64,000 bases of DNA from Lolium rigidum (lineage: Eukaryota; Streptophyta; Magnoliopsida; Poales; Poaceae), in the NCBI RefSeq assembly GCF_022539505.1, contig NC_061508.1, positions 38,310,256-38,374,255 on the forward strand, in the 5' to 3' direction. Positions 14,855 to 41,595 of the stretch are shown piece by piece. The notes beneath the pieces were generated by a model. That model was not told where the DNA came from and made no database searches. It saw only the letters and a program-made list of their open reading frames with translations. The translations under genes and the position numbers were made by a program. Position 1 is the stretch's first letter. Each line of letters opens with the position of its first letter.

Positions 14855-15193
14855 GGTGCTTCTAGATCAAAAACAGATCCTGGCAGAAAACAGCTCGAAA
14901 CAAAACACGACGAGAAAACGATATACGGACCTCCAGGGGTTCGGGGGATTATATAGAAGAAATTTTCGCGTCAGAAGGAAAGTACCAGGTCGAACCAGAG
15001 TTGGAGAGGGACACCGAGGGGCCGTCCTCATAGGGCGGCGCGGCTAGGGTAGGGCCTGCGCCGGCCTATGGGGGCACGCCCTCGTGCGTCACCTCCTCTC
15101 CGTTTCGATCTCGTAATTTTTCACATTTTCCGAAAATAGCAAAAACATAGTTCGTAAAGTTAAACGCGGACTTTTTATTACCAGAACTGTTAC

Positions 15194-18106: not shown

Positions 18107-19780
18107 TCAATATGAGCATACTTGATTATCAGGCAACGGTTTTAAATCAAAAACATGATCTTCCTTTGGTGGTGGTGTTGTACCTAGATCTTCAACCGGC
18201 AAGTCATGTTTAAGAATAGGTTGACGAAGGAAAATTTCATCAAGCTCATTCCTTTCTTCCCTAAAGACTTCACTCTCACTATCCTCCAAATGTTGCTGCA
18301 AAGGATTATTAGGAGCAAGAGCAATAGATGCACACTGGTCAACTCTAAAATCATCACTAGGCAAATCAGCTTTATAAGGAGTTTTGGCAAATTTAGAGAA
18401 ATTAAACTCATAAGATTCACCGGCAAATTTAGTCACAATTTTCTCCTTCTTGCAATCTATAACAGCTCCACAAGTATTTAGAAAAGGTCTACAAAAAATA
18501 ATAGGGCAAGACTTACTAGCAGCAGAACCAAGTACCAAAAAGTCAGCAGGATATTTAATCTTACCACATAGAACTTCCACATCTCGAACAATACCAATAG
18601 GAGAGATAGTTTCTCTATTAGCTAGCCGAATAACCACATCAATATCTTCAAGTTCACAAGAACCAATTTCATGCATGATTTCTGTGTAAAGCTCATAAGG
18701 AATGGCACTAATACTTGCACCAATGTCGCATAAACCATAATAACAATGATCACAAATCCTAACAGAGAGCATAGGAACACTGGCTTTCCTAGACTTATTA
18801 GGATGCGAAACAATATTAGAAGCATCTTCACAAAAAATGATATGACCATCTTCTACATTTTCAGTCACAAAATCTTTAACTATTGCAATAGTAGGTTCAA
18901 CCTTTATTTGCTCTTCAGGTTCTATAGGTTTCTTTGCACTTTTATTAACCACACTAGTTATAACAGAATACTCCTTCATTTTAGCAGGGAAAGGAGTTTT
19001 TTCAATATAAGCTTCAGGAAGAATATGATCAACAATTTCAATTACAACACATTTATTTATAGATGAATCAGTTTTATCTTTGTACGGTTCATGATACTTA
19101 TCAAAATTCTTCCTAGGCAATTCAAAATGAGAGGCAAAAGCTTTATAAAAATTTGCAACAACTTGAGGGTCAAGACCATAAGTAGCACTCATATTACGAA
19201 ACTTATCAGTATCCATAAAAATTTCAATGCATTTCTAATCATAATTTATACCTGACCCTCTATCTTCATCGTTCTCCCATCCTTCAGTATTCGCCTGAAT
19301 CCGATCAAGAAGGTCCCTTTTAAACTCTTCTTTGTTGCGTGTAAATGATCCAGAACAAGTAGTATCCAGCACGGTTTTATCTTGAAAAGAAAGTCTTGCA
19401 TATAAATTATCAATGATGATATTACCAGGAAGCTCATGAATGGGGCATTTGAGCATTAAAGACTTCAATCTCCCCCATGCTTGGGCAATGCTCTCTCCAT
19501 CATGAGGCCAGAAATTATATATGCAGTTTCGGTCTTTGTGAATTTCACTTGGAGGATAGAATTTAGAATAAAATAGAGGCACAATATCCTTCCAATCAAG
19601 AGAATCCCCATTCTTCAGCAATTTATACCAATGCGCTGCTTTACCAGACAACGATATAGAGAATAGTTTCTTCCTAACTTCATCCATAGCAATACCTGCA
19701 CATTTGAATAACCCGCATAATTCATGTAAAAACAATAAATGATCTCTAGGATGGACTGTTCCATCCCCTGCAATGGCGCC
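18107..19780 (-). pseudogene. Athila gag-protease, N-terminus deleted
   Basis: Gag ([20 protein letters not shown], then AHWYKLLKNGDSLDW and [20 protein letters not shown]) is followed by an in-frame TAG at 19235-19237. The frame then continues to the aspartic protease ([14 protein letters not shown] near 18710). It ends early at 18107 through a small deletion relative to the plus copy. The start codon and first ~47 codons are missing: sequence next to the primer binding site runs directly into gag at GDGTVHPRDH. Confidence 0.9.
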
Positions 19781-21338: not shown

Positions 21339-23091
21339 TGATGGGGTTCGTTGCATAGAAAACAAAAAATTTCCTACCGCAAAGACGAATAAATCCAAGA
21401 TCTAATCTATGGAAAAACCAAGATCTAATCTATGAGATCTGAACAACGATATGGAGATGAGACTAACCCTCGAAGATTCCAAAGCCTACGAGATTAATCT
21501 CGTTGTTGGTGTAGACGATCGTTCCGGTGCTGCAATCCGGCAGCACTTCCGTACTCGATCGCGCGTACGGTGTCGATGAAGCCCCTTCCTCTCCCCATTC
21601 CAGCGGGTAGCGGAGGTGTGGTAGATCTCCACGGAATCCCAGCAGCACGACGGCGTGGTGGTGGTGGTGGAGAAGATTTGCTGCAGGGCTTCGCCTAAGC
21701 CTGCACATCGTATGGAGGAGGAAGAGAGGGGGCGGCTAGGGTTGGAGGAGAGGTGGTGTGGCCGGCCACCCCCTCCCCTCTTTATATAAGGGAGGGGTCG
21801 GCCTAGGGTTTCCCCCTGGCCCCACCTCCTTCCTTGGCCGGCGCCCCAAGGGGGGGAAGTCTTCCTCTTATCTCTTCGTTTAAACGCTTTAATCTCGAGA
21901 TAGATTCTATCTCTAAATTTAAACCATTTAAATTAGAGATAGATCTTATCTCTAAGGGGGGGCTGGCCTGGGCCCACATGTCACAGTGGGCTAGACCCAC
22001 CATGTCATGTGGCGCCTATGAGGCCTCTCCCGGGGTGGTGGGCCCACTGGTGGCCCTCTAGAACCTTCTAGAAGCTCCGGTCAAAACACCGGACTTTTTC
22101 CCGAACCCCGGAAAATAACTTCCCTTATATGAATCTTATTCTCCGGACTATTCCGGACCTCCTCGTGATATCCTGGATCCCATCCGAGACTCCGAACAAA
22201 AACTTCGGACTCCATCTCATATTCCGAATCTTCTTATGCGACATCGAACCTTAAGCGCGTCACCCTACGGTTCGCGAACTATGCAGACATGGTCGAGACT
22301 CCTCTCCGAGAAATAACCAATAGCGGGATCTGGAGATCCATAATGGCTCCCACATATTCAACGATGACTTTAGTGATCGATTGAACCATTTACATACAAT
22401 GCCGACTCCCTTTGTCACACGATATTCTACTTGTCCGAGGTTTGATCATCGGTATCTCCATACCTTGTTCAACCTCGTTACCGACAAGTACTCTTTACTC
22501 GTACCGCGGTATGTCATCTCTTATGATCCAATCATATGCTTGCAAGCTAATCAGATGACATTCCACCGAGAGGGCCCAGAGTATATCTATCTGTCATCAG
22601 GATGGACAAATCCCACTATTGATCCATATGCCTCAACTCACATTTTCCGAATACTTAATCCCATCTTTATAACCACCCATTTACGCAATGGCGTTTGATG
22701 TAATCAAAGTACTCTTCCGGTGTAAGTGATTTACATGATCTCATGGTCGAAGGACTAAGGCAACTATGTATCGAAAGCTTATAGCAAATTGAACTTAATG
22801 ACTTGATCTTATGCTACGCTCATTTGGGTGTGTGTCCATTATATCATTCAACTAATGACACAACCTTGTTATTAATAACATCCAATGTTCATGATCACGA
22901 AACCATGATCATCCATTAATCAACAAGCTAGTTATACAAGAGGCTTACTAGGGACTCCTTGTTGTTTACACAACACACATGTATCAATGTTTCGGTTAAT
23001 ACAATTATAGCATGGTATATAAACATTTATCATAAACACAAAGATATTATAATAACCACTTTATTATTGCCTCTTGGGCATATCTCCAACA
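21339..23091 (-). repeat. 3' LTR of the BARE/Angela-like copia (1753 bp)
   Basis: Minus-strand start TGTTGGAGATATGCCCAAGA at 23091, end aacgaaccccatca at 21339. The start resembles the TGTTGGAAATATGCCCTAGA of Angela/WIS/BARE elements, but the family is distinct. A purine-rich tract (aagtgggagatc) precedes it on the minus strand. Confidence 0.9.
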
Positions 23092-23125: not shown

Positions 23126-26100
23126 TTACATTGTAAGGTACCTAACACCCATAGCATTCTGGTGTTGGTCATGCTTTGCCCTAGGGAGAGCTTTAGTCAA
23201 CGGATCTGCAACATTCAGATCTGTGTGCACTTTGCAAATCTCTACTTCACCATCTTCGATGTACTCGCGAATCGAATGAAAACATAGCTTGATATGCTTT
23301 AGCTTCTTGTGTGACCTTGGTTCCTTTGCATTGGCGATGGCACCCGTGTTGTCACAATAAATGACTAACGGGTCCAATGCACTAGGAACCACACCAAGCT
23401 CAACAATGAACCTCTTCATCCATACCACTTTCGATGAAGCCTCTGAAGCCGCTATATATTCAGATTCTGTTGAAGATTTCGCCACCGTGTACTGCTTGGA
23501 ACTGCTCCAGCTTACTGCCGCACCATTCAATATAAACACGTACCTAGACTGAGACTTGGAGTCATCAGGATTGGTGTTCCAAGTTGCATCGGTGTAACTG
23601 GTTACAACGAGCTCTTGGTCACCGCCATAACAAAGAAACATATCCTTAGTCCTTTTCAGGTACTTCAGGATATTCTTGACCGCAGTCCAGTGTTCCATTC
23701 CTGGATCACTTTGATATCTGCTAGTCAAACTAACAGCATGTGCTATATCCGGTCTAGTACACAGCATGGCATACATGAGAGAGCCTACTGCCGAAGCATA
23801 GGGGATCTTGCTCATCCTCTCTCTTTCATCTGCCGTAGCCGGACCTTGAGTCTTACTCAAGACCTTACCTGGCAACATAGGCAAGAACCCTTTCTTGCTT
23901 TCATCCAATCCAAACTTCTTTAGAATCTTGTCCAGGTATGTACTCTGTGAAAGGCCTATTAGGCGTCTTGATCTATCTCTATAAATCTTGATGCCTAAAA
24001 TGGTACGTTGCTTCACCAAGGTCTTTCATTGAAAAGGACTTATTCAAATAACCTTTAACGCTGCTTAATAGTTCTATATCATTCCCAATCAATAATATGT
24101 CATCTACATATAATATCAGGAACGCTACAGAGCTCCCACTCACTTTCTTGTAAATACAGGCCTCACCATGAGTCCGTATAAAACCGAAGTCTTTGATCAC
24201 CCTATCAAAGCGTAGGTTCCAACTCCGGGATGCTTGCTTCAGTCCATAAATGGAACGCTGAAGTTTGCATACCTTGTCAGCATTTTCAGGATCAACAAAA
24301 CCTTTTGGGTTGTACCATATACAACTCTTCCTCAATATCACCATTGAGGAACGCCGTTTTGACATCCATCTGCCAAATCTCATAATCGAAAAATGCAGCT
24401 ATTGCTAACAAAATCCTCACAGACTTTAGCTTCGCTACAGGTGAGAAAGTCTCATCGTAGTCAACTCCTTGAATTTGTCGGAAACCCTTTGCGACAAGTC
24501 GAGCTTTATAGACAAGTAATATTACCATCAACATCTATTTTTCTCTTGAAGATCCATTTATTCTCGACAGCCTTGCGGCTATCAGGTAAGTCTACCAAAG
24601 TCCATACTTTGTTATCATACATGGATCCCATTTCAGATTTCATGGCTTCTTGCCATTTGTTGGAATCTGGGCTCATCATTGCTTCTTCATACGTCGCGAG
24701 GTCCTCATCATTGTTGTCCACAATCATGACATTTAGACAGGGATCATACCAATCAGGAGTGGTACGTTCCCTCGTCGATCTGCGAGGTTCAGTAGCTTCC
24801 TCGTTCGAAGTTTCATGATCATCATCATTTGCTTCCTCTCCTATCGGTGTAGGCTGTGCAGAAACTTCTTCCGGCACTGCGCTACTCTGATCTATGAAAG
24901 AAGGTTCATCAACCTCATCGAGTTCTACTTTCCTTCCAGTCACCTCTTTAGTGAGAAACTCCTTCTCAAGAAAGGATCCGTTCTTGGCAACAAAGATTTT
25001 TCCTTCGGATCTGTGATAGAAAGTGTACCCAATTGTTTCTTTAGGGTATCCTATGAAGACGCATTTCTCCGTTTTGGGTTCTAGCTTGTCAGGTTGTAAC
25101 TTGTTTACATATGCTTCGCAACCCCAAACTTTAAGGAACGACAGCTTAGGTTTCTTCCCAAACCATAATTCATACGGTGTCGTTTCAACGGATTTAGATG
25201 GTGCCCTATTTAAAGTGAATGCGGCTGTCTCTAATGCATAACCCCAAAACGATAACGGCAAATCGGTAAGAGACATCATCGATCGAACCATATCTAAGAG
25301 AGTTCGATTACGACGTTCGGACACACCATTGCGCTGTGGTGTTCCCGGCGGTGTCAACTATGAAAGTATTCCGCATTTCTTTAAATGCATGCCAAACTCA
25401 TAACTCAGATATTCGCCTCCGCGATCAGAACGTAGAAACTTAATCTTCTTGTTACGTTGATTTTCTACTTCACTTTGGAATTCCTTGAACTTCTCAAAAG
25501 TCTCGGACTTATGTTTCATAAAGTAAATATATCCATATATACTCAGATCATCCGTGAAGGTTAGAACATAACGATAACCACCGCGCGATGCTACACTCAT
25601 TGGTCCACACACATCGGTATGTATGATTTCCAATAAGTCTGTAGCTCGCTCCATTGTACCAGAAAATGGAGTCTTAGTCATTTTTCCCATTAGACATGCT
25701 TCGCATCTGTCAAGTGACTCAAAGTCAAGTGACTCAAGAAGTCCATCGGAATGGAGTTTCTTCATGCGTTTCACTCCAATATGACCAAGATGACAGTGCC
25801 ACATATAAGTAGAATTATCATTCAATTTAATTCGCTTAGCATCAATGTTATGAACATGTGTATCACTACTATCGAGATTTAACAAGAATAAACCATTCAT
25901 CTCAGGTGCATGGCCATAAAAGACATTACTCATATAAATCGAACAACCATTATTCTCAGACTTAAACGAATAACCGTCTTGCATCAAACAAGATCCAGAT
26001 ATAATGTTCATGCTCAACGTAGGTACAAAATAACAATTATTGAGGTTTAAAACTAATCCAGAAGGTAGATGTAGAGGGAGCGTGCCGACGGCGATCACAT

Positions 26101-26185
26101 CGACTTTGGATCCATTTCCAACGCGCATCTTCACCTCGTCACTTGCCAGGCTTCGTCTATTCCGCAGTTCCTGTTTCGAGTACAA
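23126..26185 (-). pseudogene. Copia integrase, reverse transcriptase and RNase H (broken)
   Basis: Right to left: pre-integrase (WHCHLGHIGVKRMKKL, CEACLMGKMT), integrase core with HTDVCGPM, SDRGGEYLS and, after a stop near 25358, TPQRNGVSERRNRTLLDM. Reverse transcriptase follows in three frames (KARLVAKGFRQIQGVDYDETF, WQMDVKTAFLNGDIEEEL, YGLKQASRSWN and an intact ILYVDDILLIGND near 24110). RNase H shows YTDATWNTNPDDSKSQS and SSTESEYIAA. Breaks near 25358, 24510, 24300 and 23985. Most catalytic residues survive, so decay is moderate. Confidence 0.93.
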
Positions 26186-27108
26186 ATGTGAGCAACCGAA
26201 CCAGTATCAAATACCCAGGCACTACTACGAGAACCATTAAGATATACATCAATAACATGTATATCAAATATACCTTTCTTTTTTACGTGGCCGCTCTTCA
26301 GATCGGCCAAGTATTTGGAGCAATTGCGTTTCCAGTGCCCCTTCTTCTGGCAGTAATAGCACACAGTCTCAGGTTTAGGACCAGCCTTAGGCTTCTCAGG
26401 ATGCGCTGCAACTTTCTTGCCGCCCTTCTTGAAGTTACCCTTGTTAGGCTTGCCCTGCCTTTTGAAACCGGTGGTCTTGTTGACCATCAACACTTGGTTC
26501 TCCTTTTTAATCTCTACTTCAGCAGATTTCAGCATGGAAAAGAGTTCAGGTAAATCTTTGTTCATGTTCTGCATGTTGTAGTTCATCACGAAGTTCTTGT
26601 AACTTGGTGGCAGTGATTGAAGGACACGATGAATACCCAGCTGGTTAGGGATCATCATCCCCATGTCACTGAGCTTCTTCGCATGTCCGGACATGGCGAA
26701 CATGTGCTCACTAACGGAGTTGCCCTCTTCCATCATGCAGCTAAAGAACTGTTTCGAAGCCTCATAGCTCTCCACGGCCGCATGAGTTTCAAAGATAAGT
26801 TTGAGCTCACGCATCATCTCACAGGGGTCATGGTGCTCAAAACGCTTTTGGAGCTCTGCCTCTAAGCTGCACAAGATGGCACACTAAACTTCGGAGTACC
26901 GAGTTGCCCGAGTCTCATAAACATTCTTTATGTCCTCGGATACTGCAGGAGGTGGTGGGGGACCTAGCGGTGCATCGAGCACATATTGCAGGCTTCCACC
27001 AGTGAGGAAAATCCTCACATGACGGAACCAGTCAGTGAAGTTGCTACCATTGCCCTTAAGCTTTTCTTTCTCTAGGAACTCGGTTAAAATTGATGGAGGG
27101 GGCGCCAT
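26131..27108 (-). pseudogene. Copia gag and protease (one stop)
   Basis: Starts MAPPPSILTEFLEKEKLKGN at 27108 and runs through a typical copia gag. An in-frame stop at 26884 interrupts it. The zinc knuckle CYYCQKKGHWKRNC is intact near 26350. The protease motif WVFDTGSVAHIC lies near 26205. Downstream it shifts frame into the pre-integrase region. Confidence 0.92.
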
Positions 27109-28289: not shown

Positions 28290-28809
28290 TGATGGGGTTC
28301 GTTGCATAGAAAACAAAAAATTTCCTACCGCAAAGACGAATAAATCCAAGATCTAATCTATGGAAAAACCAAGATCTATTCTATGAGATCTGAACAACGA
28401 GATGGAGATGAGACTAACCCTCGAAGATTCCAAAGCCTATGAGATTAATCTCGTTGTTGGTGTAGACGATCGTTCCGGTGCTGCAATCCGGCAGCACTTC
28501 CGTACTCGGTCGCGCGTACGGTGTCGATGAAGCCCCTTCCTCTCCCTGTTCCAGCGGGCAGCGGAGGTGTGGTAGATCTCCACGGAATCCCAGCAGCACG
28601 ACGGCGTGGTGGTGGTGGTGGAGAAGATTTGCTGCAGGGCTTCGCCTAAGCCTGCACATCGTATGGAGGAGGAAGAGAGGGGGCGGCTAGGGTTGGAGGA
28701 GAGGTGGTGTGGCCGGCCACCCCCTCCCCTCTTTATATAGGGGGAGGGGTCGGCCTAGGGTTTCCCCCTGGCCCCACCTCCTTCCTTGGTCGGCGCCCCA
28801 AGGGGGGGA
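28290..28809 (-). repeat. 5' LTR of the copia, inner piece
   Basis: Matches 21339-21857 of the intact LTR nearly base for base, then stops abruptly after a run of seven G and one A where foreign sequence beginning TGTCACGCCC starts. Confidence 0.92.
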
Positions 28810-29173
28810 TGTCACGCCCCGAAACCGGGCCTAGTCGTGACAACGCCACATATTTATAATCTCGCGATTATAAACATGTAAGGCTCAAACTAAGACATAT
28901 TATAAAGTTAAAACAACACTTTATTCAATATATTTTCTATTACACAAGTCCAGATACAATATGTATTTTTCCCTTCCCGCGGAACTACGCTACGCTTCTG
29001 CATCATCTCCAAACATGCTAACTTCTATAAAAAAATAGAGATGGAAAGGGTGAGTATAAAGTTATACTCAGCAAGTAGTACAACAAGAAAACAATAGATG
29101 ATTAAGAGAATTAGCGGAATCAAAGGAAAATAACAAAGTGTCAGTCAGAACCAGATACGACGAATACAACAAC

Positions 29174-30336
29174 TGTTGTCACCAGAATTTGACCGGATCA
29201 GAGGTGGGCCGCGATGGAAGATGGGCTTGAAGAATATACATAGAAGAAATACATGAAGCGGCCTTGCGCGAAGAGTTTGGGCTAGATTGCCCGTGTATCT
29301 GTATTATAGTAGATCGCATCTTAGTTTAAAAGGTAGAGTTTGGCCCGTGCACGGTTAGGTGCACGCCTCAATTAGAAAGTCCCTTGGACTATAAATATGT
29401 ATCTAGGGTTTATGAAATAAACAACAATCACGTTCACAACAAACACAAACCAGGCGCATCGCCACCCCTTCTTTCGAGGGTTTCCTTCCGAGTAAGCATC
29501 ATGCTGCCTAGATCGCATCTTGCGATCTAGGCAGTACACGTTTATTCGTCTACCTTGTGTTACTCGTGCTGAAGCGTTGTTGATGGCGAGTAGCACTACC
29601 TATCTTAGGTGTTTTGGGGCTTGCATTGATGCTTTTCTTATGCACATCTGCTTAGCAATGCCGTCCCTCGACACCTAGCTGCCCTTACACCTATCCGGGT
29701 GTAAGGGTAGCATCTTGCTTGTTCGTTACTTAGTAGATCCGATCTGTTATAGTTGCTCCTTGTTCTTCAAGGATTAGTTTAATATCTGCATGATTAGGCC
29801 TTACGCTGGGGTCGGATGATCCGGTAGTACGTTAGGTGTTGTTTACCGTTCCTACAAGGGATGTTCCGGGAATTGACTTAATGTTGGTTTTTAGGCCTCT
29901 TGTAGGGGTAGTTTTCATCATCTTTCGTATCAGCTAGGCCCAACTATGCGTAGGATGTTCCGGTTATGCGGTGAAAACCCTAAACTGTCGTAGATTGGTT
30001 TAGCTTTGTTGTGATCAAGCAGGATCCCCATGTCATTGCAAATCCAATGTGAACCATGGGGCGATCGGCTCTTTGAGCCGATCCACAGGGCAACCTGAGA
30101 GCCGATAGGGCTCGTATTTAATGTTTACGTGTCTACCATGCAGGAGAATAATCGAAGCAATCTAACACCTTCCTGATCGGGTCTAGGTCAGGTGGCACGC
30201 CCTTGCAACCGCCAGGACGTGTGCTGAAAACTTGCGGGACGACGCGAGGTGCCAGGGTCCACTAAGCGGCCTTGGGAGCCTCCCGGCTCTTCGTGTTGCT
30301 TAACCACTGCTCGTCGGTGAGTTTTGGCAGGCAACA
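29174..30336 (+). repeat. 5' LTR of the non-autonomous element
   Basis: Starts TGTTGTCACCAGAATTTGAC, ends gttttggcaggcaaca. Contains cctataaatatg-like sequence near 29388-29398 (ctataaatatg) that can serve as the TATA box of the element, and a short perfect hairpin at 30063-30083. Confidence 0.93.
29388..29398 (+). promoter_or_regulatory. TATA box in the 5' LTR
   Basis: The sequence ctataaatatg within the LTR, also present in the 3' LTR near 36428-36438. It probably drives the sense gag-protease transcript. Confidence 0.6.
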
Positions 30337-30339
30337 CAT

Positions 30340-30361
30340 TCTGGCACGCCCGGTGGGACCA
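30340..30361 (+). promoter_or_regulatory. Primer binding site (putative)
   Basis: Three bases after the LTR end, the sequence tctggcacgcccggtgggac has the TGG start expected of a tRNA-complementary site. I have not identified the tRNA. Confidence 0.6.
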
Positions 30362-30397
30362 TCTTCTACAACATCCACGTCAACACCTGCATTCGAG

Positions 30398-32059
30398 ATG
30401 GCGGACGAACCGATCAAGTACGAGGATCTCCCTGCAGAGCATAAGAAGAAATACGATGAGCTGAAGGCCATCTGTGAAGCCGAATTCATCGGCTCCTTTG
30501 AGAAGACCCATTCTCACGGCATCAGGTTCAAGGTTGACACACGTCCGTTTCCTGGCGTCAACATGGTGGATCTTAGCCACTCCATAAGGTGCGAGCCAGA
30601 GTTCGCTTTTAGCGTCAACATGGCAGGGCTTGTGAGCCGCCATGGTAAAGATAAAGCAGAGAGTAGCCACTCCCGTGGCAAGGGTAAAGAGGAGGCCGAT
30701 CCACGCGACCGGCCCCAAGATGATGATAGACGGTACCTGACCGAGGAGGAAGTGAGAAGCGTGCGGTATCAACGTCCACTCTCCGCGCATCTCCTTAACA
30801 AATATGAACAGCAGTATGACCGACGTCGGCGCTACGACGCAGATGATGAGAGATATCGTCGGTCTGATGCAGAGGACAGAAGGTATCGTCAGCATAATAG
30901 AATCAACGACGGGTACGAGCGTCACGCTAGAGGGAGGTCAAGAGAGCAAGACGACATGGATAAGCATTGGGACTGTCCTTTCTTCAAACATTGCTGGGAC
31001 TCAGGAATGAGCCGATTGCCAACAATCGAGAACTGCCCAGAATGCAGACAGCAAAGGAAGAGGACACATGAGGTTTCAGTGTTCGAGCGTCTAGGGCCTC
31101 TCCCACCTCAGAACAAACGAGCTGAGTCATCTCAAGAAGAAGACTTTGAGGAGTCAGATGGAGAAGAAGATAGGTATCACCGGCCAAGGTGGTGCCCTGA
31201 TGGACTCAGCCATTCTCAGAAGCGTAGGGTGCAGCGGCTACGAAACCTGGAGGAAGCCGAGGCACAGTACCTGTATACGTTGAGGAAGGCAAGGCCCGAT
31301 CTGGCCGTGAAAATTCAGCAAACATTGGAGACAAAGGCGCGCCCGCCAAAGAAAGTATGGCGCCCTAAACAGACGAAAGTCGATGCAGAGGCATCGGCTG
31401 ATACAAACATGGTGTTCATACTCCCGTCAGAGTTTCGCGCTCCAAACGACGAGGAAGTATCGGTGGCTCAATTCGACTGCGGTCCACGGCCAGTTATCTT
31501 TGAGAAGCCACGAGATAGAAGCTACAGGCATTTGAAAGCCCTATACCTGAGAGGTTATATCAATGGGCAGCCTGTCAGCAAGATGTTGGTCGACACCGGA
31601 GCGGCAGTCAACATAATGCCGTATTCCATGCTACGGCGTTTGGGACACTCCAATGATGATCTGATCAAGACCAACGTCACATTGAGCGATTTCAACGGCC
31701 AAGCATCAGAAGCAAAAGGTGTTCTAAATGTAGATCTTACTGTAGGCCGGAAAACCATACCTACCGCGTTCTTCATCGTCGACAGCAAAAGCAATTACGC
31801 TGTCCTGCTAGGAAGGGATTGGATTCACGCTAACTGTTGCATTCCGTCCACAATGCACCAATGCATCATACAGTGGGATGGAGATGAAGTGGAGGTCGTT
31901 CAGGCAGATGACTCAATCGAGATATCACTAGCTGCCATGAATATTTGGGAGGCAGATGACCAAGAGCCGCTCTCTGGAATCAGTTTGGAGGGCTGTGAGC
32001 GCATCGAGGCTTCGAAAAATGGGGTGAGGCTGGTTTTATCCACCGGCCTGACAGAGTAG
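30398..32059 (+). CDS. Gag-protease of the non-autonomous element (553 aa)
   Basis: The frame is open from 30272, but that start lies inside the LTR, so I choose the ATG at 30398 (MADEPIKYEDLPAEHKKKYD). The N-terminal part is charged; a long Arg/Asp-rich stretch (about residues 95-190) is followed by a Cys/His cluster, CPFFKHCWDSGM ... CPECRQQ (about residues 193-220), that resembles a zinc-binding knuckle. The aspartic protease is near residues 390-490, with VDTGAAVNIMPYSML as active site and VLLGRDWIH near its end. Then comes a short tail and a stop; no polymerase follows. The retrotransposon capsid segment (YFxxL...W type) of full gag proteins is not visible. This looks intact and young. 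It may supply structural protein while enzymes come from related autonomous elements. Confidence 0.88.
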   Translation: MADEPIKYEDLPAEHKKKYDELKAICEAEFIGSFEKTHSHGIRFKVDTRPFPGVNMVDLSHSIRCEPEFAFSVNMAGLVSRHGKDKAESSHSRGKGKEEADPRDRPQDDDRRYLTEEEVRSVRYQRPLSAHLLNKYEQQYDRRRRYDADDERYRRSDAEDRRYRQHNRINDGYERHARGRSREQDDMDKHWDCPFFKHCWDSGMSRLPTIENCPECRQQRKRTHEVSVFERLGPLPPQNKRAESSQEEDFEESDGEEDRYHRPRWCPDGLSHSQKRRVQRLRNLEEAEAQYLYTLRKARPDLAVKIQQTLETKARPPKKVWRPKQTKVDAEASADTNMVFILPSEFRAPNDEEVSVAQFDCGPRPVIFEKPRDRSYRHLKALYLRGYINGQPVSKMLVDTGAAVNIMPYSMLRRLGHSNDDLIKTNVTLSDFNGQASEAKGVLNVDLTVGRKTIPTAFFIVDSKSNYAVLLGRDWIHANCCIPSTMHQCIIQWDGDEVEVVQADDSIEISLAAMNIWEADDQEPLSGISLEGCERIEASKNGVRLVLSTGLTE

Positions 32060-32569
32060 CAAGGTCCAAGATGATGGACATACGTGGCGAGGCCGATCCT
32101 TGCAATCGGCCCCAAAAAATGGAAAGAAAAAATCTCATCTCAAGCATGTCACGTAGCTACAGCGAAATCCAAGGAATTGCAAACCATCGTCAAGCATTGC
32201 AATGAGAAAGGAGGCCGATTCTAGCAATCGGCCAAAATTATCCTCGACATACGTTGTCTTGGTTCAGCATTGATCCAACAGAGGATGCCTGAAGAGCCGA
32301 TACCCTCAATTACTTGAAAGAATCGGCTCGGGGGGCACTTAGATGGATAAGACACGAGGATACGAAGTTTGAAGTGGCTGTCAAATGCCCAGCAGCTCAA
32401 GATATATTCTTTGATGATGATGGGTATTGAAGTATGGGGGCCGATGCATAAATAAATCGGCCGTAAAAAATGCAAATTTTTTAAGCATAGCCGATGCGCA
32501 GACATCGACTTAAGAACAAAAAGCGTATGTCGACTCAAGAGGTACAAGATCAGTAAAACAGTTATCAGT
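32060..32569. other. Spacer with repeated GCCGAT/ATCGGC pairs
   Basis: The gap between the two converging frames. It holds several small inverted pairs such as gccgatccttgcaatcggc (32091-32109), gccgattctagcaatcggc (32214-32232) and a gagccgat...atcggctc pair (32294-32330). No coding sequence. It may contain the 3' ends of both convergent transcripts. Confidence 0.7.
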
Positions 32570-35500
32570 TTACACAGAGAAGTTTTTCTGAAGAAATGCG
32601 TCAAGAGCGTGAAGGGCGTCGGCACGGATACGATCCACTTCGGCGATCTCAGCCTCGTCGTCCTCGTCGTTGCCCGTCACTAGTTGACTGCTCAGGGCAC
32701 GAATTTCAGCCAGATCGGTTTTCAGATCGGCTGTGAGGCCTTGTGCTTCCTCTCGAGAGCGGGCAATAAGGGTTTCCTTGTCTTGGATAAGCTGCTTGGT
32801 CACCCTAACCTTTTCTTCAAGGTTCTCCAGTTCCTTGCGCAGGGCCTCGAGTTCAGCACTATTGGCGGAAGTGTCAGTCTTGGCGTCTAAGGCAGCCTTT
32901 TTCTCGTTGAGCCGTTGACACTTCTCTGTAATATCGGCTCTCAACGGAAGCTGGGCATGACGGCGGATAATTCTTTGATGAGCCGACTGCACTCTTAACC
33001 TGAAGGCCGACAGTGTTACAGCTGGCCAAAGCTTCACCTGCAGTGTCACCGGAAGATGGGGCTGGATTTCTTCAAGGATGCCCTTGACTGCCTCGGGGTT
33101 TTCAACCAGTGTCTCAACTGAGGAGGAGAGCAAAGCTTTGAGACGCTGGAGTGGACCATGGACTGTGCCAGGACTTGGCTCTTCATCTGCCTTGGAAGTA
33201 GCCGGCTCGATGGATTCAGGATCGAACGTCAGCAAGCTCGAAAGATCACAACTCTGACAAACGAACAAGAGCGGTATGAGTATATATATATACAACAAAG
33301 AAAGGGAGTGGAGAATACCTCTCCCAGAGTGGGAGGAGCGGCCGATGTTGTGATAATCGGCTCTTCCGTAGACTTGGCTAGGTTAGACACTTGGCCAGCC
33401 ATGCTTGTCGAGGTGGCCAGATCTAGTGTGGCGGATGGCATCAATATCTCTTCAACGTCCCCGCTAGGGATCTCATTAGCCTGCAAAAGAGATGGTGAGC
33501 CGATCCAAGTAGCAATGGGATGACGTGAAATATGAACTGGTGAAGTAATTACATTTGAAACCTCCTGGCTTGACGAGGAAACTTGCGAGTCTTTGCGAGC
33601 CCTTCTGACGCATCGACGCTTCACGCGTGACCCTGTTTTGATTGGAGCTTGAGGAGCGACGGGCTCGGGGGTCGACCTTTTCCTAGAAACCGACGCTGGC
33701 GAGTCCGTCTGGCTCTGGGTGGTGGATCTCTCGGAGTTGCCCGGGGTCGAGTCCTTTTGGCTGGAATTTGCCTCCTTGCTGGAGTTCTCTTCGGTGGAAG
33801 TCTGTAAGAAGAAGTACAAGCATGTTAGAAAGAACTAGAGGGATAAATGGATTTAGTCGGGGCACGAGACAGCTTACATGCAAATTTTCCTGGACAGGAG
33901 CTTTGCGCTTCAGGGTCTTCCTGGCAGCTACTTTCCTCACCGCCTTCCTCGCCTGGGTCGAGGCTCGGGGGGCAACGGGCCCCGAAGATGCTTTACTCTT
34001 GGGAGCCGATTTTGGTGAAATCGGCTGGCTCTGCATTATGACCTTCTTCAGGGGCGGCGAGCTCTGGCAGAAGAGAACTACCGGGGCTGGTGGAAGGAAT
34101 GTGAAGGGGGAGCCATCGGACTGCACGGGCTCTGGGCCGTCTTGTTCCTACCAAGAGATAGAACCAGGTGTTTAGACAATCATCAGGAGCGATTGCAAGA
34201 AAGTTATATGGAATGGTACCTGATGTGCAGGAATGTCATATTCGGCATCAAGTTGCTTCAGCAACGGTCCTAGAGCTCTTCTGAAGGCGTGGGTCTTCCA
34301 CATAGACCACCAAATCTCGAAACCATCGGTAGTGGTGGTGAAGCAGAGGTTGTGAGGGATTGGAATAGCCAGAGCGTCAAAAAGGGTGTAGCACCTTTGG
34401 CCAGTAAGGATGTCAGGCAGTTCAGCTCTGCTTGCTGTCAGGTGGTGGAGAAAGAAGTGTGGGGGCACTTGCCCGAGACCAAGCTGCCGAGCTACTACCA
34501 CCGGTTGGTAAGACTCGTAACCAGGCTTGATGATCCGGTTAGAGGTACTCATGCCAACTGGGAGGAAGCAAGGACGGATCATGATAGAGTACAAGTGCCG
34601 GGTGCTAGCGTCGTCGGCAAAGCTGTCTAACCGGAAGGAGACTGGATTCTCAAAGTTCTCCGATTCGGTATAAGGGAAGAACAGGGGTTTGCCCAAGCCT
34701 TGGAAGAAGATCTTGAACCACTCTGCTGCTTCCTTAGGGATCAGCCTGCTGCCTGGGAGGCTATACAAAGCTTGACCATAGCTGGTGCATCGTATTTCCT
34801 TCCCATTAGCATCTGGGAAGGTGCAGGTGGTCAGAGGTGTGAAATTTGGGATCTGGTTCTGAAAGTACAGCTGAGCCCATAACTGAATAAACCACCAGGG
34901 GCCTCCTATTTTAACTGTCTTTTGGGAGAACAGTTTGACCGACGTCAGTTGAAGAGATCGATAGACTTCTCCAAGGAGCAGTTTACCAAGGCCGAGTGGA
35001 GTGCCTTTGGTGAGTTCGTAAGCCAGGGAGAGATAATTCTTGGTTGGGGCAAGTGAAGGACCACAGAATATGAAGTGCTCCAGCCAGAAGTTCAAGAAGG
35101 CCGTGTGTTCTCTTTCGGTTACAGGGCCTTTGGTTTTCATATAACGCCTGAGGTAGGCGCCCCAGCTTGTACACTCTGTTTTAGAGGAGAGGGTGAAGGG
35201 AACTTTTGGCAACTTAAAGGCAGAGGGGCGGGGGGATGCAATGTCCAGGCCTGTGATCATGGCCACGTCCAACAGAGTTGGTGTCATGGGGCCATGACCG
35301 AACATGAAGCAATTTAGTGCATCAGACCAAAAGTAGCCGATGGTCTTCAGAATGTTTTCATTCTTTTCAAGAGGAGACAATGATAATGATAAGGCGTCGG
35401 CTATCCCTATTGTTTCCCAAGTAGCATAATGGGTCTTAGACACTCTGCTGTACCATGCCACCCAACCCTCAGGGGGATTAGGCCAGGCTCGCAGGCAGTC

Positions 35501-35784
35501 GGCCCAGGAAGTCAGATCTAAATTCTGGTTCACAAAGGGGATTCTGTTGGCCTCGCATGAGATTAAGTGAGCGGGACTCTCGGAAGAACGGGGGCCAAGA
35601 CACATGGAATTTGGGAGAGAGGGATGCGGCAGCAAGATGTCGGAAACCTAAAATTAATAACAGAATGGGGTATTAATTTAGGTGTTTGCTGTTCGATCCT
35701 AACATTGATTCGAATGGCGAAGAAGCGGTTGAGTGTTACCTTCAGCCCAGAGACCATGGCGTTGGTGTTGGATGACTCCGCCAT
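32570..35784 (-). CDS. Antisense spliced PMD-domain gene (5 exons, 969 aa)
   Basis: Exons read right to left: 35784-35740, 35647-34220, 34147-33878, 33801-33319 and 33253-32570. The four introns (92, 72, 76 and 65 bp) all begin GT, end AG and lie in phase 0, and the joined frame has no stop. Start: MAESSNTNAMVSGLK, then VSDILLPHPSL across the first junction. Exon 2 holds a plant mobile domain (PMD, 'aminotransferase-like') region, with WADCLRAWP, WVAWYSRVSKTHYATWE and LLDVAMITGLDI as landmarks. Exons 3-4 encode a basic Ser/Pro/Lys-rich linker with KRRCVRRARK, a likely nuclear signal. Exon 5 ends in a long Glu/Leu/Lys coiled coil (about 110 residues). PMD occurs in plant proteins such as MAIN/MAIL1 and in transposons; its biochemical role is unsettled. 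The function here is unknown. Possible roles are transposition helper, silencing antagonist or captured host gene. Confidence 0.8.
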
Positions 35785-36212
35785 TTGATGTGCTGCGGAG
35801 TTGGGACGGCGCGGTTTGGATCTGAGGTTCGTGGAGTTGCTTGGGCGGCGATTTTGGGGATCTGAGTTTGCTTTCTCAGGCAGAGGTCGCAGGTTACCGT
35901 TTGGAGGGGCAGTTAGGTTGGCCCTGCTCGTGTTTTATGGTAGAGGCCGATGCGATGCCATCGGCTCTTTTGGGGGTTGTTTAACTTTGACTATCGGCCA
36001 AGTTAATTAGGAGCCGATTGTTCAAGAGAGAAAGAACAAAAGAAGAGCCGATTGCTCGGAAATTGCCAAAGCTGTCAAATCGTGCAGAGAAGTTGGGAAG
36101 GCAAGTCGTCATGATGAAGAATACTACGACGGTTCTGCTCTGCCACGACATGACCCTTCGAAGGAAAAACAGAGTGGTTTTGAAATTATCATTACCAAAA
36201 CCAGGGGGCATG
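35785..36212 (-). promoter_or_regulatory. Putative promoter region of the antisense gene
   Basis: 428 bp between the antisense start codon and the 3' LTR. A TATA-like ccataaaacac occurs on the minus strand about 150 bp upstream of the ATG (35930-35940). Several GCCGAT/ATCGGC motifs cluster at 35945-36055. The purine tract for the sense element (ccagggggcatg) lies at its right edge, so this sequence serves both strands. Confidence 0.45.
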
Positions 36213-37376
36213 TGTTGTCACCAGAATTTGACCGGATCAGAGGTGGGCCGCGATGGAAGATGGGCTTGAAGAATATACATAGAATAAATACATGAAGCGG
36301 CCTTGCGCGAAGAGTTTGGGCTAGATTGCCCGTGTATCTTTATTATAGTAGATCGCATCTTAGTTTAAAAGGTAGAGTTTGGCCCGTGCACGGTTAGGTG
36401 CACGCCTCAATTAGAAAGTCCCTTGGACTATAAATATGTATCTAGGGTTTATGAAATAAACAACAATCACGTTCACAACAAACACAAACCAGGCGCATCG
36501 CCACCCCTTCTTTCGAGGGTTTCCTTCCGAGTAAGCATCATGCTGCCTAGATCGCATCTTGCGATCTAGGCGATACACGTTTATTCGTCTACCTTGTGTT
36601 ACTCGTGCTTGAAGCGTTGTTGATGGCGAGTAGCACTACCTATCTTAGGTGTTTTGGGGCTTGCATTGATGCTTTTCTTATGCACATCTGCTTAGCAATG
36701 CCGTCCCTCGACACCTAGCTGCCCTTACACCTATCCGGGTGTAAGGGTAGCATCTTGCTTGTTCGTTACTTAGTAGATCCGATCTGTTATAGTTGCTCCT
36801 TGTTCTTCAAGGATTAGTTTAATATCTGCATGATTAGGCCTTACGCTGGGGTCGGATGATCCGGTAGTACGTTAGGTGTTGTTTACCGTTCCTACAAGGG
36901 ATGTTCCGGGAATTGACTTAATGTTGGCTTTTAGGCCTCTTGTAGGGGTAGTTTTCATCATCTTTCGTATCTGCTAGGCCCAACTACGCGTAGGATGTTC
37001 CGGTTATGCGGTGAAAACCCTAAACTGTCGTAGATTGGTTTAGCTTTGTTGTGATCAAGCAGGATCCCCATGTCATTGCAAATCCAATGTGAACCATGGG
37101 GCGATCGGCTCTTTGAGCCGATCCACAGGGCAACCTGAGAGCCGATAGGGCTCGTATTTAATGTTTACGTGTCTACCATGCAGGAGAATAATCGAAGCAA
37201 TCTAACACCTTCCTGATCGGGTCTAGGTCAGGTGGCACGCCCTTGCAACCGCCAGGACGTGTGCTGGAAACTTGCGGGACGACGCGAGGTGCCAGGGTCC
37301 ACTAAGCGGCCTTGGGAGCCTCCCGGCTCTTCGTGTTGCTTAACCACTGCTCGTCGGTGAGTTTTGGCGGGTAACA
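36213..37376 (+). repeat. 3' LTR of the non-autonomous element
   Basis: 1164 bp, nearly identical to 29174-30336. I count about a dozen differences, mostly transitions plus one inserted T near 36610. On the antisense strand this LTR lies just upstream of the PMD gene. Confidence 0.93.
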
Positions 37377-37381
37377 ACAAC

Positions 37382-38854
37382 GAAATGGAACTTAACGGAA
37401 ATGGACAAGGAAAATATTGGCATCACACATGACAGCAAGCTTCCCAACCCGGGAGTCACAGGGGTGAATATCCACACTTTTACGCTCTGCAGAGGGGTAC
37501 TCTGACATCGACAGTCTTGACTAGCTCCACCGTGCCAGCCAAGCAGTGCCCTTTTACCCGCTAAGACCCGGACACTCTGACCTACTGATGTCGGTCGCTC
37601 CTACGGATCCATCACCGACACGTTCCCGAACAGAGGTTGTCCCCAGCGGAGAACACAGACAGTCCCATACCTGAACTGTGACCGGTATAATATGTTTGCC
37701 GTCGTGATACCAATACACAAGACTAGGATATTCGCAGGTAAATGATACAATCACTATCTTGAGACTCCGAAGCCTCAAGGCTCTACATGAGCTCCCGCAA
37801 ATAATGCAACTCGGAAAGCTGGAGATGACTACCCGTCTCTCTCCAACAACATTATGATGAAACAGGACCAAAGATCGATGTTCAACAATATTAGGATCAA
37901 GCAAGATTAACAGAACATGGTGCAAGCAGCAGTACTAGCACCTCAATGAAATATCAACAAGATAGTCTAGAAGTAGCAAAGTAACTACTCTCAAGATCAA
38001 AGAATTAGGAAAGCATCTACTTGCAATATCAAAGGATTAGGAAAGACACTACTTGCCTCGGTAGTACTTCTATGAACAATGTCAACTATATTTCTCTCAA
38101 GAAGAAAACCCGCCACTATATAAATCAATCATAGAAGTACCAACAACAGTTTGTTACTCGGCTCCCATCTTCGTTTCGGCACCATCTCCGGTTGCATATT
38201 TTTTTGTCTAAACACTTAGGCAGCTCTCACTCTTACTGGCCTAAACTGTCTATCTAATACATCTCATGTGAGCTCTGGTTGGTCGATCCGCCATGCTGGG
38301 TGGTAGAGCAGGAGTGAGTGCCTATTTATAGAGAAGCGATAACGGTTGAAAGCTACCAGAAAATATCTAGGTCGGCCGCTTTGCCGCTTGACCTCTCGAC
38401 GTTGTTAAGGAAACATTGCCGACATCCTAGAAGTGAGCCAAAGGGACTAGCTCATTAGCCTGGCTAACATGCAGCAGTTCCACGTACTCCCCTGGCTGAC
38501 TAAGCCCTCTAGCTGGTTGCCACGTTAGACTCTTCAAATTAATACTACCACACTAGTCTCTTGAGTGCATGCATCGATTTGTTCAATGCCCCTGCATGTA
38601 CGTATGCAGTAGCTCCACTTCTTCTCTCTTCCTTTCAGAATCTCTGCGTAGCTGATTCTGCTAGCTGCTTCTACATAGCTAGATCAAATTGATACAGTTG
38701 TACTACTAGTTATCTTGCATAAACAAGTCAGCTTTTAGTTTTACTAGATTAACTACTCTAATTCTTATTGCATGCAGAAATTAACATCAACTATTATTAG
38801 AAGCTAACCATTTCAACTCAAATTTATATATATTCAAAAGTTAGGGTTCTCTCT
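37382..38854. other. Right fragment of the unclassified split element
   Basis: Continuation of the sequence at 28810-29173. I see no coding frame: the only longer open frame (37554-37925, -) shows no domain. A minus-strand TATA-like ctataaatagg is at 38322-38332. From 38500 the DNA is AT-rich up to the copia LTR junction near 38855. Confidence 0.5.
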
Positions 38855-40082
38855 TCCCCTTATCTCTTCGTTTAAACGCTTTAATCCCGAGATACATTCT
38901 ATCTCTAAATTTAAACCATTTAAATTAGAGATATATCTTATCTCTAAGGGGGGGCTGGCCTGGGCCCACATGTCACAGTGGGCTGGACCCACCATGCCAT
39001 GTGGCGCCTATGTGGCCTCTCCCGGGGTGGTGGGCCCACTGGTGGCCCTCTAGAACCTTCTAGAAGCTCCGGTCAAAACACCGGACTTTTTCCCGAACCC
39101 CGGAAAATGACTTCCCTTATATGAATCTTATTCTCCGGACTATTCCGGACCTCCTCGTGATGTCCTGGATCCCATCCGAGACTCCGAACAAAAACTTCGG
39201 ACTCCATCTCATATTCCGAATCTACTTATGCGACATCGAACCTTAAGCGCGTCACCCTACGGTTCGCGAACTATGCAGACATGGTCGAGACTCCTCTCCG
39301 AGCAATAACCAATAGCGGGATCTGGAGATCCATAATGGCTCCCACATATTCAACGATGGCTTTAGTGATCGATTGAACCATTTACATACAATGCCGATTC
39401 CCTTTGTCACACGATATTCTACTTGTCCGAGGTTTGATCATCGGTATCTTCATACCTTGTTCAACCTCGTTACCGACAAGTACTCTTTACTCGTACCGCG
39501 GTATGTCATCTCTTATGATCCAATCATATGCTTGCAAGCTAATCAGACGACATTCCACCGAGAGGGCCCAGAGTATATCTATCCGTCATCAGGATGGACA
39601 AATCCCACTATTGATCCATATGCCTCAACTCACACTTTCCGAATACTTAGTCCCATCTTTATAACCACCCATTTACGCAATGGCGTTTGATGTAATCAAA
39701 GTACTCTTCCGGTGTAAGTGATTTACATGATCGCATGGTCGAAGGACTAAGGCAACTATGTATCGAAAGCTTATAGCAAATTGAACTTAATGACTTGATA
39801 TTATGCTACGCTCATTTGGGTGTGTGTCCATTATATCATTCAACTAATGACACAACCTTGTTATTAATAACATCCAATGTTCATGATCACGAAACATGAT
39901 CATCCATTAATCAACAAGCTAGTTATACAAGAGGCTTACTAGGGACTCCTTGTTGTTTACACAACACACATGTATCAATGTTTCGGTTAATACAATTATA
40001 GCATGGTATGTAAACATTTATCATAAACACAAAGATATTATAATAACCACTTTATTATTGCCTCTTGGGCATATCTCCAATA
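38855..40082 (-). repeat. 5' LTR of the BARE/Angela-like copia, outer piece
   Basis: Matches 21863-23091 of the intact LTR with scattered substitutions. It ends atatctccaata, where the partner LTR ends atatctccaaca, and is followed directly by the target duplication taaca. Confidence 0.92.
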
Positions 40083-40581: not shown

Positions 40582-41595
40582 TCAAACGAAAAACGAGACG
40601 AAGAAGAAGCAAGCAGCGACGAGAACAAACGACTGCACGATCGTCGGGCCAGAGAGCCCGGAGCTGGCATTGCCGCCGCCGTCATCAGCGCCGTCCCCTT
40701 CCCTGCTCCCGCGCCGTTCAGCTCCATGCTCCCATCCGCCGACGTCCGGATCCCCCAGCATTAACAGCCACGCCAGAGGGCCCCAGCCGGCCATCAGCTG
40801 CCCCGGCGGCTCCCTCCTCTCCGCTCCTCCGTCACCGTCGCCGCCGCCGCTGCCATCGGGAGACTCGCCGGTCGGCGGTGGCAGCTCCTGGCGGCAGACC
40901 GGGCAGGAGTTATGGAGCCGGAGCCACGGCACGATGCAGTCGGAGTGGTAGGCGTGCTTGCACGGCAGCTCGCGCGCGGTCTCCCCGAGCTCGAACTCCT
41001 CCTTGCACACGGGGCACTGCGAGCCGTCCGCCATGTGTGCCGGCGAGATGCGCACCGTGGGGAGCGACTCGATGGCTGATGTCGGCGCCGGCGCCGGTCC
41101 CGGGCGGTCGTTCTGCGTGAGCCCCTCGATGAGCGCGTTCAGGTTGGGCCCGGTGAAGAACTCTGCTGGGTTAAAGCCGGTGGCCGGTGGACCGGCATCG
41201 GCGCCGTCCAGGCCGCCGCGCGCGCCCGGGGCCGGGGGTGGGGACGGGACCCGGCGGCGGCGGCGTGGGCGCGGCGTGTCGCCGTCGTCGTCCTCGCCCC
41301 TGTAAATGACCCAGTGGCGAGGGGCGCCCTCGTACGTGGGCAATGGCGGCGGCGGCTGGAAGTACGTGGGCAATGGCGGCGGCGGCTGGAAGAGCTGCTC
41401 GATCGGTGAGTGCACCGGCGTGGGCAGCTCGATCTCGTGGAGGAAGCGGCCGAGGCAGCGCGGGCAGAAGACGTCGGAGGTGGGGGACGACACGGTGCGC
41501 AGGGCGCGGCGGCACACGTAGCACCAGTACAGGCGCCACCTCCGGCGCTGCCGCGGACGGGCGCCGGTCGCGCCAGGCGCTGACATGGCAGGCAC
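40582..41595 (-). CDS. RING-H2 E3 ubiquitin ligase, zinc-ribbon/RING type
   Basis: Single-exon frame of 337 aa. Near the N-terminus (residues 25-50) a zinc ribbon reads CYVCRRALR ... CPRCLGRF, typical of the RDUF/RHC1A-like plant ligase group. A Pro-rich, basic low-complexity middle contains a tandem QPPPPLPTY repeat. The RING-H2 finger lies at about residues 193-236: [34 protein letters not shown], giving the full C3H2C3 set. It should transfer ubiquitin from an E2 to unknown targets. The last 19 residues ([16 protein letters not shown] core) are strongly hydrophobic and could anchor the C-terminus in a membrane, which is unusual for this group. A second in-frame ATG lies three codons after the first. 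Very high GC, no introns, neighbours are transposons. Confidence 0.93.

Follow-up and report, generated by a model that had tools for sequence, protein, structure and literature searches.

The window is a stretch of 64,000 nucleotides from Lolium rigidum (NC_061508.1, 38,310,256-38,374,255, forward strand), and all coordinates below refer to it. An LTR retrotransposon occupies 29174-37376 and is flanked on both sides by the target duplication ACAAC. Its plus strand carries a Gag-protease open reading frame (ORF). Antisense to this ORF lies a plant mobile domain (PMD) gene, on the minus strand from 35784 to 32570, whose predicted exons join in frame. The features are, in order:

29169-29173: target-site duplication ACAAC, left copy (sequence)
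29174-30336, plus strand: 5' LTR (TGTTGT...CAACA), 1163 bp (blastn and alignment)
30342-30359, plus strand: candidate primer binding site TGGCACGCCCGGTGGGAC (by its place immediately downstream of the 5' LTR)
30398-32059, plus strand: capsid-less Gag-protease ORF, 553 aa (PF13975, E=5.7e-12; no Retrotrans_gag)
32060-32569: non-coding spacer with nine GCCGAT/ATCGGC words and four stem-loop pairs (word count, RNA fold)
32570-33253, minus strand: exon 6, 684 nt, DUF1409-like segment, coiled-coil-like tail and stop codon (PF07197, weak)
33319-33480, minus strand: exon 5, 162 nt, with one stem-loop (33341-33361)
33481-33552, minus strand: intron missed in the preliminary description, 72 nt, GT-AG, in frame and open (Lolium model alignment)
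33553-33801, minus strand: exon 4, 249 nt, second basic cluster
33878-34147, minus strand: exon 3, 270 nt, basic linker and one stem-loop (34005-34025)
34220-35647, minus strand: exon 2, 1428 nt, carrying the plant mobile domain (PF10536, E=4e-24 on the exon alone)
35740-35784, minus strand: exon 1, 45 nt, ATG (junction 1 crossed in 23 of 23 two-sided Lolium models)
35785-36212: spacer upstream of the PMD gene, with five GCCGAT/ATCGGC words
36197-36212: polypurine-tract-like AAAACCAGGGGGCATG (position)
36213-37376, plus strand: 3' LTR, 1164 bp (blastn and alignment)
37377-37381: target-site duplication ACAAC, right copy (sequence)

Two LTRs, a target duplication and, by their positions, a primer binding site and a polypurine tract identify the element as an LTR retrotransposon. 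We take its lineage to be Gypsy, of Tat/Retand type, from relatives such as P0104. The LTRs had been described as almost identical, and the alignment agrees: they differ by 7 transitions and 3 transversions (10 sites) and by one gap, and are about 99.1% identical. Their K80 divergence of 0.0087 corresponds to an age of about 0.33 My at 1.3e-8. ARAGORN finds no tRNA in the window, and no Rfam family matches 29100-37450 at its gathering threshold.

The preliminary description also called the element gag-protease-only, without pol. The absence of pol stands, but Gag additionally lacks its capsid domain, since a Pfam profile search finds no Retrotrans_gag in the element's Gag-protease ORF. The relative P0091 (946 aa) has this domain at residues 259-336, and its residues 43-472 are absent from the element, leaving a deletion junction at 30523/30527. 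Two Lolium gene models, P0129 and P0209, cross the same junction gap-free and have the same shortened start of Gag; P0090, a third model, lacks the capsid as well and has an additional gap of 28 residues. The capsid loss is therefore probably not private to this copy. A predicted intron in such gene models can skip a capsid.

Neither the capsid part of P0091 nor the reverse-transcriptase parts of P0104, P0129, P0194 and P0209 have a match in the element. Relatives with reverse transcriptase align to its Gag-protease part only; the close Lolium relative P0104 is 92% identical over 339 residues of this shared part. No other long plus-strand frame is left in the element. It thus lacks the capsid, reverse transcriptase and integrase of an autonomous Gypsy element, integrase being judged by the absence of another long plus-strand frame. 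The Gag relatives are the best 120 of 596 matches, and comparisons used 10, 15, 6 and 5 of them. The Panicum Gag proteins that were compared begin at an internal methionine in the alignment, so they are uninformative on capsid loss and were dropped as capsid-less examples. A pattern search of viral contigs for related DNA returned two matches, neither of them a relative.

The PMD gene was at first read as five exons and four introns with 969 codons. The four introns (35739-35648, 92 nt; 34219-34148, 72 nt; 33877-33802, 76 nt; 33318-33254, 65 nt) are all GT-AG, and the 969-aa frame with its single terminal stop holds, but a fifth intron at 33552-33481 had been missed. The frame is open with or without these 72 nt because their length is a multiple of three and they contain no stop. 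Among 48 Lolium models, alignments extend to both sides of the fifth-intron junction in 23, of which 21 have no insertion there and 2 do; on this count six predicted exons (945 aa) are a better model than five. Two of the 21 align closely at the junction and 19 within a variable stretch, and 12 further Lolium models align on one side only. In none of the 48 models does the intron-encoded peptide score above the set value of 35 (the highest score with a stricter gap cost is 32), but P0022 carries SPPPLQ at the site, resembling the intron's last residues, SPSLLQ. The junction of exon 6 is crossed in all 34 two-sided Lolium models. Agreement among Lolium splice sites may not be independent because the models may share one gene finder and have similar sequences. 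At local composition, the chance of the 491-codon open run is 3.3e-9.

The domain layout first proposed, a PMD followed by a basic linker and a C-terminal coiled coil, is right overall, except that the coiled-coil exon opens with a DUF1409-like segment. PF10536 (plant mobile domain) matches the joined protein with E=3.8e-23 and 82.7 bits, above its curated cut-off of 34.9, and exon 2 alone with 85.9 bits, bearing out the domain assignment. The AlphaFold model of exon 2 has pLDDT 72.8 and pTM 0.81; a search for a known fold for the PMD found none. In the 945-aa form, residues 557-574 and 636-654 make up two basic clusters. In the last exon, version 17 of PF07197 (DUF1409) matches weakly (13.8 bits, E=0.051, cut-off 29.2). 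The same version matches the rice homologue P0057 strongly (E=1e-18) and does not match P0002, P0010 or P0012; the later version 19 lists DUF1409 for 46 of 48 Lolium relatives. The window's segment can be aligned to rice proteins that score above the PF07197 cut-off. The acidic tail is coiled-coil-like by eye and by weak matches to coiled-coil families only. A DUF1409-like segment followed by such a tail is also the layout of rice 'aminotransferase-like' proteins.

The nearest relatives among the matches listed are at least 48 Lolium multiflorum gene models. At least 37 relatives are from Oryza, several listed with both PMD and DUF1409, and rice proteins show the same architecture at 30-43% identity. 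These counts are lower bounds because both PMD searches scored about 8000 candidates sharing most words; individual comparisons used 18 of 89 relatives plus the window, 45 of 89, 6, and 138 of 191. In a midpoint-rooted tree (138 of 139 rows, coverage at least 60%) built without host PMD-B or PMD-C proteins, one fork (SH-aLRT 96) holds the window with 7 Lolium, 36 Oryza and 8 metagenome rows, grouping its PMD with multi-copy PMDs of Lolium and Oryza.

Extra ORFs with a PMD were reportedly described by Steinbauerova et al. in 2011. According to the consulted sections of Ikeda et al. 2017 (PMC5418596), only Gypsy elements encode members of the PMD-A clades, and the PMD-C proteins MAIN and MAIL1 act in silencing; these sections give no details on strand, introns or non-autonomous carriers. 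The window gene resembles PMD-A1 and PMD-A2 as a PF10536 protein of a multi-copy angiosperm Gypsy-type LTR element. It likewise resembles the PMD extra frames of Tat-lineage Ogre elements, 57% of which carry extra ORFs with a PMD according to the sections used of Neumann et al. 2019 (PMC6317226). The classification there relies on reverse transcriptase, RNase H and integrase, whereas the window element has neither reverse transcriptase nor capsid.

Antisense position has its own precedents. Retand elements have antisense ORFs near the 3' LTR, sometimes with an Smc-like coiled coil, and non-autonomous members are known in Poales (Vicient 2025, PMC11963269, in the sections available). The window gene is such an antisense frame near the 3' LTR, but it differs from the Retand ORFs, which carry Transposase_28, in having a PMD and a DUF1409-like segment, six exons and no accompanying pol. 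Transposase_28 (PF04195) is absent from its Pfam matches up to E=1, although HMMER's filters discard most matches beyond about 0.1. Maize Grande gene23, which has its own promoter and a nuclear protein, and rice RIRE2 are likewise antisense accessory genes (Vicient and Casacuberta 2020, PMC7264820), but the available text of that paper never uses 'mobile domain' or 'PMD'. Oryza LTR consensuses with DUF1409 and Gypsy consensuses with PMD place both domains in Gypsy-type elements (PMC9289625); the available text of that paper mentions neither strand nor introns.

There are thus published precedents both for PMD genes in Gypsy elements and for extra antisense genes in Retand elements. As far as literature searches show, a PMD-gene carrier without capsid and pol is new. 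At least two surveys, as described in the sections consulted, find elements through reverse transcriptase and would therefore miss such carriers: one uses it as a marker, which puts pol-less elements outside its reach (PMC9289625), and the other mines for intact copies of it (PMC11963269).

The explanation that we favour, though tentatively, is that a ryegrass Gypsy family encodes this gene as an accessory gene, and that the PMD protein counters silencing while relatives supply the missing machinery. A promoter of its own, located between 35785 and the 3' LTR, would drive transcription of the gene, and the transcript would be spliced. Its introns would survive retrotransposition because they are in the wrong orientation for splicing from the genomic RNA. 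The protein would enter the nucleus via its two basic clusters and pair via its tail. By analogy, its PMD may engage the host chromatin or transcription machinery used by MAIN/MAIL-type PMD proteins, and the putative result is that silencing is kept off the element family. Capsid, reverse transcriptase and integrase would come from relatives that carry them, such as P0091 for the capsid and P0104 for reverse transcriptase.

As a counterpoint, a gene in a non-autonomous copy may simply be inherited. The gene could matter in carriers with capsid and pol and be baggage here, intact because the insertion is young; we consider this possible, if doubtful. The frame's integrity between near-identical LTRs had been taken as a sign of selection, but this is weak evidence, since at about 0.33 My a frame escapes damage by chance with a probability of 0.67 (no nonsense change) or 0.20 (any indel counted as damage). 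Also consistent with baggage is the linker, whose replacements overall are about neutral (mean BLOSUM62 -0.41, against -0.39 to -0.44), although single-nucleotide ones are milder (-0.01). Replacements in the PMD are milder than neutral (-0.01, against -0.54 to -0.56; single-nucleotide ones 0.20). This test used the 48 Lolium models, with alignments of at least 60 columns and at least 60% identity and with columns near ends and gaps excluded.

Identity tells a similar story. It is higher in the PMD than in the linker in all 32 usable Lolium homologues (of 48) and higher than in the C-terminus in 39 of 40 (of 48); medians for the 31 covering all three are 0.905, 0.711 and 0.789, respectively. 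Constraint on the PMD is thus consistent across homologues, with capsid-less and capsid-bearing carriers pooled. This argues against mere baggage, as does the capsid loss shared with P0129, P0209 and P0090, subject to the caveat on predicted introns. Selection appears better supported by the family, through PMD constraint across homologues and an architecture that recurs in rice, than by the intact frame.

An unlikely alternative is that a dimeric PMD protein acts as an adaptor, binding the repeated GCCGAT...ATCGGC stem-loops or palindromes to control export, packaging or promoter activity of the element, as a retroviral accessory protein of Rev or HBZ type would. The array of these stem-loops around and inside the gene is new as far as literature searches show. 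From 30398 to 36212 there are 26 of the hexamers where 2.5 are expected, and their pairs are convergent in seven cases, divergent in one and never in the same orientation (p=0.00035). The spacer at 32060-32569 holds 9 words against 0.34 expected (maximum 3 in 300 shuffles), and its RNA fold has z=-3.91, with none of 100 shuffles as stable. The residues encoded by the stems within exons 3 and 5 have a conservation of 0.95, compared to a linker mean of 0.67 (p=0.0003). Wobble pairs in the stem-loops give no clear strand preference. However, the motif was noticed before testing, so these statistics are post hoc. The conserved PI...SA residues could reflect a short peptide motif instead of a stem, and the fold of the second spacer, 35785-36212, is not clearly better than shuffles (z=-1.80).

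It is improbable that the antisense RNA rather than the protein matters, by pairing with genomic RNA to feed or block small-RNA silencing; such a role has been proposed for extra antisense frames as a class (PMC7264820, available text), but it leaves unexplained an open frame whose PMD can be recognised between ryegrass and rice, where identity is about 35%. It is very improbable that this single element recently captured a host PMD gene together with its introns: the introns are typical of host genes and MULE transposons have captured host PMD-C genes (PMC5418596, consulted sections), but capture is disfavoured by the dozens of close Lolium relatives and by the fork uniting window, Lolium, Oryza and metagenome rows, in a tree without host PMD-B and PMD-C.

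PMD proteins are found in both camps of the plant-transposon conflict: host MAIN and MAIL1 silence elements, while Gypsy elements carry PMD genes of their own. A carrier that lacks capsid and polymerase but retains a large intron-containing PMD gene is a clean test case, in which the gene's action, of whatever kind, is independent of the remaining machinery in cis. The element also indicates a blind spot in surveys anchored on reverse transcriptase. A more specific and quite improbable extension is that a lineage without capsid or pol persists by supplying, for the whole element family, a trans-acting nuclear anti-silencing PMD protein that recognises the GCCGAT/ATCGGC stem-loops scattered along the element. 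If the regulator and stem-loop readings were both true, a defective element would be kept as its family's regulator and would not be a pure parasite.

The antisense gene for a plant mobile domain (PMD, PF10536) protein is genuine and well built, an accessory gene of a type already known, and its carrier, an LTR retrotransposon resembling Gypsy elements of the Tat/Retand type, is unusual. According to published work, PMD is the commonest extra domain among angiosperm Gypsy consensuses (PMC9289625), PMD-A clades are encoded exclusively by Gypsy elements (PMC5418596) and 57% of Ogre elements have PMD in extra frames (PMC6317226). Retand elements are described as marked by antisense Transposase_28 frames, and some are non-autonomous (PMC11963269). 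A pol-less carrier of an intron-bearing antisense PMD gene has no description in the titles and abstract openings of the open-licence matches listed, a scope outside which Steinbauerova et al. 2011 falls. The parts of the element are as follows.

29174-30336, 5' LTR
from 30342, PBS-like stretch
30398-32059, plus strand, Gag-protease ORF
35784-32570, minus strand, PMD gene
ending directly before the 3' LTR, polypurine-tract-like stretch
36213-37376, 3' LTR

The LTRs are nearly identical, as the preliminary description had it, differing by 10 substitutions and one gap, and ACAAC stands at both outer ends of the element. Their divergence (K80 = 0.0087) corresponds to about 0.33 My at 1.3e-8, a rate quoted in PMC6123737. 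Two 1.2-kb direct repeats (21860-23089 and 38852-40080, 98.2% identical) flank the element. Frames beside the left repeat (23126-26883, minus strand) look Copia-like by eye and are also enclosed by these repeats; the element is thus probably nested in an older one. A further 524-bp repeat occupies 21339-21861 and 28290-28813. Farther out lie inverted 5-kb copies of an LTR element (14755-19770 and 58288-63299, 93.9% identical), the right one with long ORFs carrying gag, reverse transcriptase, RNase H and integrase domains. Adjoining the outer repeat is a 337-aa RING-finger frame with a zinc ribbon (40585-41595, minus strand), likely a host gene.

The element had been called gag-protease-only. 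Protease is indeed present in the plus-strand ORF, but the capsid domain is absent from its Gag. In P0091, a related Lolium gene model, that domain lies within residues 43-472, the segment missing here. The capsid-less junction (within 30398-30530) is common to P0129 and P0209, two models annotated with reverse transcriptase domains that both cross it without a gap; P0090 is likewise capsid-less, with an additional 28-residue gap. The claimed absence of pol is borne out with five Lolium relatives as queries: those bearing reverse transcriptase match the Gag-protease part only. The close relative P0104 has this same part (92% identity over 339 residues) fused to reverse transcriptase, and is a candidate helper for the element.

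Five exons had been proposed for the PMD gene. The four introns named are all GT-AG and the joined frame runs 969 codons to a single stop at its end, but a fifth GT-AG intron was missed (33552-33481, minus strand). Its 72 nt preserve the frame and contain no stop, so the frame is open whether spliced or unspliced. All Lolium models aligning on both sides cross the junctions of the 92-nt (23/23), first 72-nt (31/31), 76-nt (24/24) and 65-nt (34/34) introns, with 0, 13, 9 and 11 more one-sided, an agreement that is support and not proof because these models may come from one common gene finder. At the fifth junction 23 of 48 models align on both sides and 12 more on one; two of the 23 cross with close identity, 19 cross in a variable stretch and two have an insertion. 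The peptide predicted from this intron exceeded the set score in 0/48 models (best <=32 on stricter re-scoring), but the Lolium relative P0022 has SPPPLQ at the site, resembling its last residues. We take six exons and 945 aa as the predicted model. Lying opposite to the genomic RNA strand, the introns would escape removal when that RNA is copied and could therefore persist through retrotransposition, as argued from the replication cycle.

The expected PMD profile match falls in exon 2 (PF10536, E=4e-24). The basic linker described after it was also recovered; it is rich in serine, threonine and proline, has two basic clusters, and is followed by an acidic C-terminus. In the last exon a DUF1409-like segment scores E=0.051, under the curated cut-off of the model version used. 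A later version is annotated in 46 of the 48 Lolium relatives, and the rice homologue P0057 has PMD and DUF1409 both clear. In the literature DUF1409 is reported from seven Oryza species (PMC9289625).

A search that scored 7992 candidates returned at least 89 related proteins. Among the matches listed, 48 are Lolium multiflorum models that closely resemble the window's protein, a 49th Lolium protein (P0089) has only a short piece in common, 37 come from Oryza and share 30-43% identity, and three have other sources. In a quick midpoint-rooted tree of 138 PMD rows, the window forms a clade (support 100) with seven Lolium rows, on a long branch, within a 52-row fork shared with 36 Oryza and eight metagenome rows (SH-aLRT 96), whose internal branching order the tree does not settle. 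A ryegrass, or a species close to one, is therefore the probable host.

A second feature of the internal region is an array of GCCGAT...ATCGGC stem-loops (32060-36212), with a constant 6-bp stem and differing loops, around and within the antisense gene. The motif was noticed first and tested afterwards, making the statistics post hoc: 30398-36212 holds 26 hexamers where 2.5 would be expected and where 300 shuffles gave at most 8, and of the pairs within 30 nt seven are convergent, one divergent and none same-orientation (p=0.00035, 20000 label shuffles). Density, in motifs per kb, peaks in 32060-32569 (17.6), followed by 35785-36212 (11.7), and falls to about 2.4-2.6 in the LTRs, gag and PMD gene and to 0.1-0.4 elsewhere in the window. 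AGCCGAT is the commonest internal 7-mer (16 times, 0 in the window outside the element), and the base adjoining the stem varies (G-C, A-T or G-T). The 510-nt spacer 32060-32569 folds better than 100/100 shuffles (z=-3.91); the fold of spacer 35785-36212 is unremarkable (z=-1.80, 4/100 shuffles). Two stem pairs within exons 3 and 5 encode PI...SA, residues whose conservation (0.95) exceeds the linker's 0.67 (p=0.0003, residue-matched), a difference that a peptide motif would explain equally well.

An intact frame between near-identical LTRs had been read as a sign of selection, yet alone it says little. Since it inserted, the coding sequence should have gathered about 12 substitutions, 0.4 nonsense changes and 1.2 indels, which puts the probability of an intact frame by chance at 0.67 (no nonsense) or 0.20 (if any indel is damage). 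Homologues are more informative. Conservation is higher in PMD than in the linker in 32/32 usable homologues and than in the C-terminus in 39/40; median identities are 0.905, 0.711 and 0.789, respectively, in the 31 covering all three. Scored by mean BLOSUM62 against a single-nucleotide neutral model, replacements are milder than neutral in PMD (-0.01 vs -0.54 to -0.56), neutral in the linker (-0.41 vs -0.39 to -0.44) and slightly above neutral in the C-terminus (-0.27 vs -0.37 to -0.40). With one-nucleotide replacements only, all three are milder than neutral, PMD most (0.20, -0.01 and 0.04). These comparisons of sequences support purifying selection on PMD at the level of the family, which is not established for the capsid-less branch. 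For that branch, it is nearly as likely as a regulatory role that the gene is inherited baggage in a derivative without capsid or pol, intact because the insertion is young.

The partner phosphatase PP7L is reported to act together with MAIN and MAIL1 (PMC7156037), and anti-silencing use of MULE-captured PMDs is put forward as speculation by the authors of PMC5418596. The most likely role of the PMD protein is that of a nuclear regulator, which would oppose host silencing.
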